A DNA stretch of 64,000 nt, taken from a bacterium (GTDB lineage: Bacteria > Armatimonadota > Zipacnadia > Zipacnadales > Zipacnadaceae). Below are positions 45,772-50,510 of this stretch, piece after piece (position 1 is the stretch's first letter; each line of letters begins with the position of its first letter). The notes beneath the pieces were generated by a model, which did not search any database, had not been told where the DNA came from, and worked only from the letters and a program-made list of their open reading frames with translations. The stretch is from positions 8,501 to 72,500 of the forward strand of contig JAUVXR010000012.1 of NCBI GenBank assembly GCA_030603495.1, read 5' to 3'. The translations under genes and the position numbers were made by a program.

Positions 45772-47571
45772 ATGAATAACCTGGCCGGTTTTCTGACAAG
45801 CGGTGCCGTAGCACTCCCCGCAGCGGCGGTGGTCTACCTGTGGGAGCGCTGGCGGCTGTCGCGTCCGGGAGGACCGTATGCCCGGGCTGACTTCTCCGGC
45901 CTGATTCTTCTGGTGGCGCTGGCAGCTTCCTGGTGGGTATATCTGCCTACCCATCCCCAACTGGCGGGTGTACTGTTTGGCGGGGGCATCGTCTTCGTGA
46001 TAGCGGCCCTGGCTGATAACTGGCGACCCGCCTGGTGGCTGGCGATAGTGGGTGTGGTGGTGGTCGGGGCGCTGCTCAGCTATCAGGGCGTAACCGTCCG
46101 TGTGGTCAACCTGCCCTTCAGCCAGAACGACATCTCCCTGGGTTGGTTCGGGCACGTGGTGACCGTACTGTGGATGGTGATCTGCGCAGTGCTGTTTGCG
46201 CAAGCGGCCAGCATCCTGGCGGTGCCGCTGGGCGTGGCCGGGCTGGCAGCGGGCACCTTTTTCCTGGTCTGCCAGCTCCAGCCGGCGGTAACCGGCCCGG
46301 TGGCAGCCTTCGCCGCCGTGACAGTGTGTGGTGCCTGTCTGGTGCAACTGCCCTTCGCCCGGATGCTGAGCTACGCCGGAGCCACCGCGGGGGCCTATAC
46401 GATCGGTTACTTGATCGGCGCCTTGTCGGTAATGGGCGCGCTTAAGAATGCTGCCTTCCTGGTCGCCGTGCTGCCCCTGATTGTCGTCGGTGTGCCTCTG
46501 TTTGCTGCTACCTATACTTATGCCGCCGAACTGCGCCGCGGCTGGCGAGCCGTCGTCTTCACCGAGCGGCGCAGGCACCTGCATGACCTGCTGCTAAGCC
46601 AGGGCTATAGCCAGCGCCAGGTCATCGGAATACTGCTCGGCGGCACGGTTTACCTCTGTCTGCTGGCATTGCTGCTGGTCTGGATTATCAAGATAACTTT
46701 CGTGGTCAAGATCGTAGTCGTCGCGGCGACAGTGGCCTTTGGGCTGCTGTTCTTCTACACACTACTTCGGCTTCTGCCCCATGCGCCGGCTGAACAGTTG
46801 CCGCGTAGTTCGGGCCAGGTGCGCCTGCTGGGCATGCCGCTGGACCCGCTGACCCTGGATGAGGCGCTCCAGGAGGCTGAGCGTTTCCTGGTAGAAGACC
46901 GGCCTCACATGATCGTGACCCCCGATGCCTCGGCGGTGGTGCGAGCACAGCACGATAAGGAGCTGCGCCAGATTATCGAGGAGGCCGACCTGGTACCACC
47001 CGATGGCGCGGGTGTTGTTCTGGCCGCGCGGATGCTCAATCTGCCGGTGGACGTGCGCTGTGCCGGCTGTGACATGGTCGAGCAGCTCTGCCGGGCGGCC
47101 GCAAACCGGGGGCGCGCAGTCTACCTGCTTGGGGGTGAGGCGGGGGTTGCCGAGGAAGCTGCGGCCAAACTCCAGGAGCGCATTTCCGGCCTGGAGATAG
47201 CCGGCTGCCAACACGGCTATTTTACTCCCGAAGAGGAGCCAGAGATTGTCAAAGACATCCGGCAGAAGCGGCCGGGGGTGCTGCTGGTGGCCCTGGGCAT
47301 ACCTCGGCAGGAGAAGTGGATCAAGGCGCATCTGGAAGACCTGCGCGTGCCCATCTGCATCGGGGTTGGCGGGAGTCTGGACGTCATCTCCGGCCGCAAG
47401 AAGCGTGCTCCGGTCTGGATGCAGCGGGCCGGGCTAGAGTGGCTTTACCGCACCATTAAAGAGCCCCACCGCCTGCTCCGGCTGCAGGCGCTGCCCGCAA
47501 TCGTCTGGATGAGTATCCGCGAGCTGCTGCGGTCGCCGGATCTGCCGTCCGAGCCACCTCAGAATGGATGA
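45772..47571 (+). CDS. WecA/MraY-like membrane domain fused to a TagA/WecG glycosyltransferase
   Basis: A 599-residue protein. The first 340 residues form about ten membrane helices of the WecA/TagO polyprenyl-phosphate glycosyl-1-phosphate transferase fold, recognisable by RRGWRAVVFTERRRHLHD and SQRQVIGILLGG. Its catalytic motifs are missing: the first Asp pair reads ADN, the NAxNLIDGLDG stretch is replaced, and the GDSG loop reads YAGATAG. The C-terminal 240 residues (from about 350) are a complete WecG/TagA/CpsF glycosyltransferase with VTPDASAVV, ADLVPPDGAGVVLA (catalytic Asp), GCQHGYF and PRQEKWI. WecA and TagA normally act in sequence on the same lipid carrier, so this chain may anchor the second enzyme at the membrane. 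The gene belongs to the leuB transcript. Confidence 0.8.
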   Translation: MNNLAGFLTSGAVALPAAAVVYLWERWRLSRPGGPYARADFSGLILLVALAASWWVYLPTHPQLAGVLFGGGIVFVIAALADNWRPAWWLAIVGVVVVGALLSYQGVTVRVVNLPFSQNDISLGWFGHVVTVLWMVICAVLFAQAASILAVPLGVAGLAAGTFFLVCQLQPAVTGPVAAFAAVTVCGACLVQLPFARMLSYAGATAGAYTIGYLIGALSVMGALKNAAFLVAVLPLIVVGVPLFAATYTYAAELRRGWRAVVFTERRRHLHDLLLSQGYSQRQVIGILLGGTVYLCLLALLLVWIIKITFVVKIVVVAATVAFGLLFFYTLLRLLPHAPAEQLPRSSGQVRLLGMPLDPLTLDEALQEAERFLVEDRPHMIVTPDASAVVRAQHDKELRQIIEEADLVPPDGAGVVLAARMLNLPVDVRCAGCDMVEQLCRAAANRGRAVYLLGGEAGVAEEAAAKLQERISGLEIAGCQHGYFTPEEEPEIVKDIRQKRPGVLLVALGIPRQEKWIKAHLEDLRVPICIGVGGSLDVISGRKKRAPVWMQRAGLEWLYRTIKEPHRLLRLQALPAIVWMSIRELLRSPDLPSEPPQNG

Positions 47572-47992
47572 TAAGCCGAGTTACTCGCCTGCAAAACCCC
47601 ATTTTGCCCATATTTCCTGCCCCTTTGTGGGACGATAATCCTTGCTATAGTGCCCACTTTGCCCCACACTACCAGCCCCGTGCTCCACGTACAGTCCTTC
47701 CTTCTCTATCCCCCCACCTTCCCCTCCTACCCTACACCCCTCGGCAAGAGCACACACCCTTCACGTCAGCAGACGGAAAGAATCTGTGAAGCTACTCTCC
47801 GTCAGGGCTTGAATGACTATGCCCCGCACGTGACGAACCCCTATTCGGGACATGGGGCTACCTACCTGTGTGGTCTGGAGGTGTTTCCGGGAATCTGTCA
47901 CGCCAGACGGCAACCATCCCAGTCCATCCGGAACGCATGTGAGCAATCGTTTGGCAGGTACTTCTCAAAGAATGGGATTTGGAGCCACAAGC
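47572..47992 (+). other. Intergenic region with a pyrimidine-rich tract
   Basis: These 421 bases hold no recognisable gene. A run of about 60 bases near 47693-47752 is almost all C and T on the plus strand (with CCCCCCACC and CCCCTCC blocks), a homopyrimidine tract that could form unusual structures. TTTGTG (47624-47629) and TATAGT (47646-47651) make a weak promoter-like pair 16 bases apart. The open frame in the second half lacks a start and family motif, so it is treated as the leader of the DUF262 gene. Confidence 0.4.
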
Positions 47993-49129
47993 ATGAGCAA
48001 CGATACTGACATAGCGTCACTCGACGGCAGAGCCGAATACGAACGAAAAACGGTTCGCCCCGAAGACATCGAGTTCGAGCGTATCGGGTCGGAAGAGGAG
48101 GATTACGAGAGCGCGCCTCCCACGTACGAGATCAACACCTATCCTGCGGATTTCACTCTTGAGGTGCTCTATACCAAGTGGAATGCTGGTGACATCGAGA
48201 TTCCGCGCTTCCAGCGTCAATTCGTATGGAGGCAGGTCCAAGCGAGCAAGCTCATCGAATCCTTCCTCATCGGACTTCCGGTTCCCGCTGTGTTCCTATA
48301 CACTAAAAGGACAACACAGAAGTTCCTCGTCATCGACGGACAGCAACGTTTTCGCAGCGTGTTCTACTTCTTTGACGGCTTCTTCGGTGAAGAGCAGAAG
48401 GGGAAGCGACAGGTCTTCCAGCTCAAGGGGCTTAGCAAAGATAGCAAGTACTACGATAAGACCTTCGAGGACCTCGATGAGCCAGATCGCCGTAAGCTTC
48501 ACAACTGTGTACTGCGCTCGTTTATCGTCCAGCAACTCGATCCCGCAGCAGACGATACCAGCATGTACCACATCTTCGAAAGGCTGAACACAGGCGGCAC
48601 GCTGCTCGCCAACCAAGAAATTCGTAACTGTGTGTACCGCGGCTCATTCACCGAGCTATTGCAGGTTCTTAACACGCTTCCTGAGTGGCGACGCATAGTT
48701 GGACGGGATGCCCCTGACACCCGACAGAAAGATGTGGAGTTAATCTTGCGGTTCTTTGCCCTTCTTGACACCGCCAGCTATAAGAAGCCGATGAAGGACT
48801 TTTTGAGCAAGTTCATGAAGGCCAATCGTGAGCCATCCAATAGTGTGCTCGGACAGTTTGAGGAGCTGTTCAGGGGTACATGTAAGGGTGTGGTGGACAA
48901 TATAGGAGATCGTCCCTTCCACATACGTGCGGGGCTCAACAGCGCCGTGTTTGACTGCGTGATGGTGAGCTTTGCGAACCATCGCGGCGTGATCGCAGCG
49001 GACATCAGAGAGCGGTATGACCGGCTAGTGAGCGATGATGAGTTTCTCAATAACGCGAGAAGCGGCACGACGGACGAACTGGTTCTCAGAAAGCGTTTTC
49101 GCGCCGCGAACCAGGCGTTGTTTGGGTAA
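47993..49129 (+). CDS. DUF262 (GmrSD-like ParB-fold) protein, first gene of a DUF262-HEPN pair
   Basis: A 378-residue cytosolic protein whose central part is a DUF262 domain, a ParB/Srx-fold NTPase or nuclease-like module found in GmrSD restriction enzymes and other defence systems. The hallmark pieces are IPRFQRQFVWR at 64-74, LVIDGQQR at about 112-119, and FERLNTGGTLLANQEIRN at about 196-213. It lacks the GmrSD DUF1524 HNH nuclease domain at its C-terminus. It is followed 9 bases later by a HEPN RNase-like gene, and both are more AT-rich than the flanking DNA. I infer a two-gene defence or toxin system. ATG 47993 is preferred, with GGAG 9 bases upstream. Confidence 0.8.
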   Translation: MSNDTDIASLDGRAEYERKTVRPEDIEFERIGSEEEDYESAPPTYEINTYPADFTLEVLYTKWNAGDIEIPRFQRQFVWRQVQASKLIESFLIGLPVPAVFLYTKRTTQKFLVIDGQQRFRSVFYFFDGFFGEEQKGKRQVFQLKGLSKDSKYYDKTFEDLDEPDRRKLHNCVLRSFIVQQLDPAADDTSMYHIFERLNTGGTLLANQEIRNCVYRGSFTELLQVLNTLPEWRRIVGRDAPDTRQKDVELILRFFALLDTASYKKPMKDFLSKFMKANREPSNSVLGQFEELFRGTCKGVVDNIGDRPFHIRAGLNSAVFDCVMVSFANHRGVIAADIRERYDRLVSDDEFLNNARSGTTDELVLRKRFRAANQALFG

Positions 49130-49138
49130 TCAAGGCCC

Positions 49139-49606
49139 ATGAAAATCGCACGAATCGATGAGGGCATAAAGACCTGCGAGGAGCACCTCCGAACTTCTGG
49201 TGCGAGCGGCACCGAGATCGAAGCTTTCCTGACGCGTTATCTAACGATAGTTATGTGCGCCAGCTTTGAGGAGCACATTGAGGAACTCGTAAACAGCCGT
49301 GCGGCGGAATCGCAAGACGTGGCGTTGGCGTCCTTTGTGCGTTCTTCACTGCACCAGGTATTTCGAAGTGTGAAGACCGGCGAGATAGCAGGTCTGCTAG
49401 GGCGCTTCGGTGAAGATCACAAGACCCGGTTTCAGGACGAGATGAGCAACAACGAGCGCGTGGCCACTTTCTATAACAACATTGTGGAGAACCGCCACCA
49501 AACGACACATGGCGGCGGATTCAATCTTACTTTCCGGGAGTTGGTTGATTTCTACTCCGAGGCCCAGCTGGTTCTTGATGCGGTCGCCAGAGCACTTCAG
49601 GGATAG
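49139..49606 (+). CDS. HEPN-domain protein (MAE_28990/MAE_18760-type RNase-like)
   Basis: A 155-residue helical protein. The C-terminal helix region carries R-x4-H as RHQTTH (Arg119, His124) in the context ENRHQTTHGGG, which is the RNase motif of HEPN domains. The length and the early segment (MCASFEEHIEELVNSR) fit the MAE_28990/MAE_18760 group, which is often found beside DUF262 genes. It would cleave RNA when active, in a toxin-like or infection-triggered way, with the DUF262 protein as sensor, partner or nuclease. It starts 9 bases after the DUF262 stop. That pairing, the low GC and the isolated two-gene setting support transfer as a cassette. Confidence 0.75.
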   Translation: MKIARIDEGIKTCEEHLRTSGASGTEIEAFLTRYLTIVMCASFEEHIEELVNSRAAESQDVALASFVRSSLHQVFRSVKTGEIAGLLGRFGEDHKTRFQDEMSNNERVATFYNNIVENRHQTTHGGGFNLTFRELVDFYSEAQLVLDAVARALQG

Positions 49607-49658
49607 ACCTGTCCGCCGCTCCGCTCACATCACCACCCCTCGCATCGGCACAGTCTGA

Positions 49659-50510
49659 TCAGAGCAGCTTCTGTAGTCTATCGAAGACGTCTTTGGCGAA
49701 CTGGCTGATGTACTCACCCATGTATGCGTTGATATCCAGGCTCGGGTCGGCCATGAGCGGCGTCAGGTCCATCGCAAAGATCATACTGGTAGCAACGTCC
49801 ACGCCGTGGGTGGCGTAATATGTTGCATTAGCCCTTCTTCGGCCCATCGTGGCTAGATCATACCCTTTTCCACCACATATCTGCGAGTCAAACACCCCAG
49901 TAAGCGCCGCCGCCAGGTTCTCATGCGCCGAGACATCAAGAGCAACCTTGTCCTCATCAACCATCCAGTCCAGATCTCGCCACACCTCACAGCCATACAC
50001 GCTCTGGGGGCGAGCGGCTTCCGGCAGTGCGCGCAGCGCTTGAATTGTCCTGAGCGCGACAGCAACATGGGTATCATGCTTATCGGCCAAGTTGTGAGTG
50101 TAGATAATCCTCGCTCTCGCCTGCTCGACCAGTTCCCTTATGTCCTCGGTGACCTCTTCATTCGCCGGGTCCTTCACCTCTGAACTGGGATAGTCCAACA
50201 AGGCGACTAGACTGTATTCTCCCACCATCGCCGCTTTCTTCTGTTCCACTCTTCTTACTCGCTGCATGTCCTCGTCCGAATAGTCAGCGTACAGATCGTC
50301 CCGAGGACTCCCGGCACCATCAGTCGCAATAACGCCGGAAAACCATTTCTCGTTATTGCCAAGGCACTCTAGGATACCGTGATAGGCCATTATTTCCAGA
50401 TCATCCGCGTGCGCCCCGATAGCCATGTGAGTCGTCCGGGCTAGAGCATTGTCAACAGATGTCCCATCTGTAACGAATAACTCGGTTCCTGGATTGTTCA
50501 GTTGAAGCAT
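49659..50510 (-). CDS. PIG-L (LmbE) family deacetylase
   Basis: A 283-residue zinc deacetylase of the PIG-L family, which removes acetyl groups from GlcNAc-containing substrates. The metal motif is AIGAHADDLEIM near residue 29 (AHxDDxE, with alanine where most have proline), and the late zinc histidine lies in YTHNLADKHDTH. GlcNAc-inositol, chitobiose and other sugars are substrates elsewhere; here it is unknown. ATG 50510 has GGAG at 50520-50523, 9 bases away, and is preferred over ATG 50519. The ROK-type kinase gene upstream (30 bases) probably belongs to the same operon, so a sugar such as N-acetylglucosamine may be handled jointly. Confidence 0.85.
   Translation of the reverse strand: MLQLNNPGTELFVTDGTSVDNALARTTHMAIGAHADDLEIMAYHGILECLGNNEKWFSGVIATDGAGSPRDDLYADYSDEDMQRVRRVEQKKAAMVGEYSLVALLDYPSSEVKDPANEEVTEDIRELVEQARARIIYTHNLADKHDTHVAVALRTIQALRALPEAARPQSVYGCEVWRDLDWMVDEDKVALDVSAHENLAAALTGVFDSQICGGKGYDLATMGRRRANATYYATHGVDVATSMIFAMDLTPLMADPSLDINAYMGEYISQFAKDVFDRLQKLL

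Follow-up and report, generated by a model that had tools for sequence, protein, structure and literature searches.

The DUF262-HEPN gene pair at 47993-49606 of the window (the whole stretch of DNA analysed, 64,000 nt) is rather likely to be an anti-phage module of the same kind as PD-T4-2, made of two genes that encode a DUF262 sensor and switch (protein A) and a HEPN RNase effector (protein B). The pair is a real, complete and probably functional module, a divergent PD-T4-2-like member of the DUF262-HEPN group. The DUF262-HEPN kind is already known, as PD-T4-2; the copy here is divergent and was acquired horizontally. The pair itself adds a further example to a kind of defence that has been tested; the interest left lies in its mechanism and in the pattern, seen among its relatives, of having either an HNH or a HEPN effector.

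Gene A (47993-49129, + strand) encodes a DUF262/GmrSD_N protein of 378 aa, identified by PF03235, PADLOC, its AlphaFold2 model and a match to BrxU. Gene B (49139-49606, + strand) encodes a 155-aa HEPN protein of the RiboL-PSP-HEPN family, identified by PF18735, AlphaFold2 and fold matches, and is a predicted RNase effector. The genes are co-directional, and 9 nt lie between the end of the A stop codon (49129) and the B start (49139). This is the spacing given in an earlier note made from the sequence alone, and both domains named there are found by Pfam above the curated cut-offs: GmrSD_N (PF03235) at A residues 62-214 (E 1.2e-27) and HEPN_RiboL-PSP (PF18735) at B residues 11-153 (E 9.2e-13). 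Protein A has an N-terminal ParB/sulfiredoxin-like NTPase-type domain and a helical C-terminal half, without an HNH nuclease; Pfam gives no match to a DUF1524 or HNH nuclease domain in A. Two conserved motifs were located in A from its homologues: DGQQR (residues 115-119; 48335-48349, + strand), which in GmrSD-family proteins belongs to the nucleotide pocket, and FERLN (residues 195-199; 48575-48589, + strand). Protein B combines a helical fold with the R-x4-6-H signature of HEPN proteins, according to Pfam, the AlphaFold2 model, the fold search and the alignment. Its catalytic motif, R119-H-Q-T-T-H124, lies at 49493-49510 (+ strand).

PD-T4-2 comes from E. coli ECOR65, where a functional selection revealed it (Vassallo et al. 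2022, PMC9519451). Its deletion from ECOR65 strongly increased T4 plaquing, and the cloned system shielded K-12 (PMC9519451). A review classes it under both DUF262 and HEPN PF18735 (PMC10952713), and RiboL-PSP-HEPN was already described as "in operon with ParB" by Anantharaman et al. (2013, PMC3710099). The overall interpretation in the earlier note is therefore partly supported. Its proposal of an undescribed system falls, since protection by DUF262 with a PF18735 HEPN is proven for PD-T4-2; its domain and active-site calls and its defence reading hold; and its remark that the mechanism has not been described stands, as we found none for PD-T4-2 in the literature searched.

Like PD-T4-2, the pair consists of two genes, for a DUF262 protein without DUF1524 and a small PF18735 HEPN protein, of lengths similar to those of the PADLOC models (363 and 168 positions). 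It differs in host lineage and in that B falls below the PD-T4-2_B model, which has no match in B or anywhere in the genome. Protein A matches PD-T4-2_A (1e-48, over residues 30-375) and, more strongly, NsnA (1.2e-67). The B result is the reason for calling the pair PD-T4-2-like and not PD-T4-2, and together with the higher NsnA score it counts against membership of the PD-T4-2 kind. Other B proteins of DUF262-HEPN pairs likewise match PD-T4-2_B weakly or not at all. The window's B is linked to that model only through intermediates. One of them is the B protein of L139, matching PD-T4-2_B at 2e-6 and the profile of the window's B family at 2e-22, the latter with L139 itself among the 98 sequences of the profile. 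Probing with DNA of related pairs brought up further DUF262-HEPN pairs in 4, 12, 7 and 31 E. coli genomes; none of these pairs was tied to ECOR65, and the likeness to PD-T4-2 is drawn from PADLOC models and domains.

For PADLOC users we add that most of the RiboL-PSP-HEPN partners tested escape the PD-T4-2_B model, and that all tested A proteins from HEPN pairs score higher with NsnA than with PD-T4-2_A (PDLC04028, PDLC03877). Automatic calls may therefore mislabel or overlook DUF262-HEPN pairs, a kind far commoner than the PADLOC B model detects.

We take the PADLOC models NsnA, NsnB and NsnC to represent Menshen. Protein A, a DUF262 protein without DUF1524, is closest to NsnA, but in Menshen the DUF262 protein is paired with an OLD-type nuclease/ATPase, whereas its partner here is a HEPN protein. 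No NsnB- or NsnC-type ATPase/OLD partner adjoins A; the NsnB matches in this genome score weakly and lie on other contigs, and, as is usual for ATPase models, this one also gives matches in all control genomes. GmrSD, BrxU, SspE and DndI have the DUF262 domain of A, DGQQR included, and a helical region like its own, and provide its best matches among solved structures; they carry a C-terminal DUF1524/HNH nuclease where the window has a separate HEPN protein. In GmrSD, BrxU, SspE and GrwA the DUF262 part controls the nuclease, and these systems sense modification of DNA. Pairs of DUF262 with a MAE_28990-type HEPN, found in phage P2_4B2 and some E. coli chromosomes, have the same gene order and domain logic, but their HEPN protein is larger and annotated as a related family, and their A is only ~26% identical.

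A scan of species genomes and viral contigs yielded 160 loci. With all loci counted, 157 of the 184 distinct relatives of A are short DUF262 proteins with a HEPN-motif ORF directly downstream, which contradicts the outcome that the earlier note had held against itself, a HEPN gene with no link to DUF262. This recurrence, together with the presence of two curated domains in one operon, rules out a chance arrangement. Relatives of A span many bacterial phyla, some archaeal metagenome-assembled genomes (MAGs), plasmids and prophages; the best match is in a deltaproteobacterial groundwater MAG (69% identity for A, 61% for B). A PF18735 partner lies directly downstream of A homologues on a conjugative E. 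coli plasmid (A 44% identical) and on 4-kb E. coli plasmids, and also in Hymenobacter, Kocuria, Exiguobacterium, a Klebsiella P2-like phage and an Akkermansia phage. A tblastn search of plasmids with B itself gave no match, since B diverges faster than A.

Motif and gap statistics were taken from the 121 distinct A proteins that scored high against the profile. All 121 have D-G-x-Q-R, with D115, G116, Q118 and R119 as invariant columns, and 120 have F-x-R-[LI]-N. The median A-B gap is -4 nt, with 118 of 121 falling between -50 and +30. Among 106 aligned B homologues, position 119 is R in 97, K in eight and T in one, position 124 is H in 105, and E44 is E in 100. The residues singled out by the earlier note, the DGQQR of A and Arg119/His124 of B, are thus confirmed as conserved, the latter two as near-invariant. 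The variant K-x4-H, with the histidine kept, was seen in eight HEPN ORFs (L045, L047, L050, L067, L069, L084, L091 and L096). The two proteins also diverge together (mirror-tree r 0.81 over 110 pairs; maximum 0.06 in 1000 permutations). Defence models of 119 families were matched by gene neighbours vs 10 by distant genes, a comparison that is qualitative only, since its unit is the model family and not the gene, and a single methylase matches many models.

AlphaFold2 models were obtained for A (pLDDT 93) and B (pLDDT 95.5). The best solved match of the A model is BrxU (Foldseek E 1.4e-5; VIA Z 9.8, 276 aligned, covering BrxU 1-420 of 580), followed by SspE, sulfiredoxins and ParB CTPase N domains. 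The rmsd of 15 to BrxU indicates that the domains are placed differently, and the part of BrxU that A leaves unmatched is the C-terminal nuclease. For the B model, Foldseek alone gave no significant match; with VIA-align the top 11 rows are all HEPN/HepT-type chains, with Z of 8.2 and lower. A HEPN Z of ~8 is modest for a helical bundle, and counts against our favoured explanation.

A few relatives of A carry an HNH-type nuclease domain of their own. Pfam finds a C-terminal HNH domain in L004 (1249-2766), L141 (5338-7089) and L123 (3126-4484), and L223 has an HNH-type C terminus by motif. None of these four has a HEPN ORF downstream, so that effectors appear to alternate, HNH or HEPN, in a comparison with four HNH cases only. 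This alternation, and the match to BrxU without its nuclease part, suggest that HEPN most likely replaces the DNase effector, giving a Type IV-like nucleotide-dependent sensor that would drive an RNase. More tentatively, DUF262 could be a general switch whose effector is either a DNase of HNH type (in cis) or an RNase of HEPN type (in trans), with PD-T4-2-like pairs sensing nucleotide and DNA and cutting RNA. A family-wide effector swap with mutual exclusion of effectors was not found stated in the literature searched. The alternation provides a testable idea for PD-T4-2-like function, with natural variants at hand.

Signs of methylases occur in some of these loci. Of 103 HEPN-type loci, six have an ORF resembling a DNA methyltransferase just upstream, a methyltransferase-like gene directly follows the HNH-type A gene of L141, and in L012 (3443-5008), on a Hymenobacter plasmid, the DUF262 protein of a HEPN pair has an N-terminal MTaX1 (methylase-associated) domain. 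They support a DNA cue, short of proof for the window's pair, which itself lacks them; since most homologous pairs have no methylase, a modification cue lacks general support.

In the mechanism we propose, A would be both sensor and switch, binding and hydrolysing NTP through its QR/DGQQR/FxRxN pocket as GmrSD, BrxU and SspE do. It would react to a signal from the phage, with phage DNA or a modification of it as the likeliest candidate. A separate HEPN protein, B, would take the place of an HNH nuclease within A. Its R-x4-H site, once released or activated, would cut RNA, so that either the phage or the infected cell is halted; A may either restrain or activate B. HEPN R-x4-H sites are usually formed by a dimer. 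Near-obligate pairing, co-divergence, carriage by plasmids and phages, and the defence-model matches of neighbours all count for an anti-phage module.

Some of the same evidence suits a toxin-antitoxin system, in which HEPN would be a constitutive RNase toxin and DUF262 its antitoxin; phage interference with A would free B, and defence would come from lost inhibition, not from sensing. The pair is compact and its genes often overlap in relatives, A and B co-diverge strongly, relatives are spread on plasmids and phages, and the closest solved folds to B are HepT/HEPN toxins of MNT-HEPN modules. These modules (HepT-MntA) share the HEPN fold and R-x4-H with B, but the window's B has no nucleotidyltransferase partner, and no aligned homologue has a Y at H+2, the tyrosine of the H-x-Y motif on which control by MNT relies. 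Moreover, A has a motif-conserved NTPase-like domain common to restriction-enzyme sensors, and PD-T4-2 was not among the toxin-antitoxin-like systems of Vassallo et al. We consider a toxin-antitoxin system unlikely, and favour the sensor with a HEPN effector.

It is more doubtful still that A is a ParB-like DNase that cuts phage DNA itself, with HEPN as a second-line suicide effector or structural partner only. ParB-fold partners of HEPN were indeed taken as DNases by Anantharaman et al. (2013, PMC3710099), and some HEPN-type loci adjoin methyltransferase-like ORFs. However, in BrxU, SspE and GrwA the DUF262 part is a nucleotide-dependent regulator and the HNH part cuts; where relatives of A have no HEPN partner they carry an HNH domain, superfluous if A were a nuclease in its own right; and the near-invariant R and H of HEPN argue against a purely structural role.

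The neighbours of the pair are a WecG/TagA-type glycosyltransferase gene upstream and a PIG-L deacetylase gene downstream. The 64-kb window yielded no methylase and no other clustered defence gene, in agreement with the earlier note, which had described the pair as having neither DUF1524 nor a methylase. The pair stands alone among housekeeping genes, outside any defence island, which counts against reading it as an anti-phage module. GC content is 53.2% for A and 53.8% for B, vs 60.5% for the window, 64.2% for the upstream gene and 53.9% for the downstream PIG-L gene. The pair is therefore more AT-rich than the window and its upstream neighbour, as the earlier note had it, but not than its downstream one, and low GC was rejected as a hallmark of the pair.

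An A homologue is absent from all 6 sister genomes of the window's genus, and relatives of A occur in 18 of the 291 genomes of the phylum. The interval between the WecG/TagA and PIG-L genes (window 47571-49659; L206-L209) is filled differently among sister species: in G004 the flanking genes are close, with ~170 nt between matches, G006 has a beta-propeller-like gene at the site, and G002 and G003 have a ROK-type kinase gene, the latter two gene names coming from reading the sequence and not from a family search. Absence in the genus, a variably filled site and patchy spread in the phylum together are what one expects of a module gained by horizontal transfer into a variable site. An ordinary chromosomal pair with a housekeeping or mobile-element-stability role would fit the housekeeping flanks and the lack of other defence genes in the window, but is highly improbable given an architecture the same as that of a tested defence system, the patchy spread (18/291 phylum genomes, 0/6 sister genomes), a site empty or otherwise filled in sister genomes, and relatives often carried by phages and plasmids.

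A structured-RNA element upstream of A was considered and is unsupported (folding z -0.4). Between the upstream gene and A, directly after the glycosyltransferase gene and outside the module, lies a short interspersed repeat (47571-47731, no strand assigned), recognised by its copies elsewhere. These are 77-89% identical, with one more in this genome and four in a genome of the same genus, and the repeat may mark an insertion-prone site.
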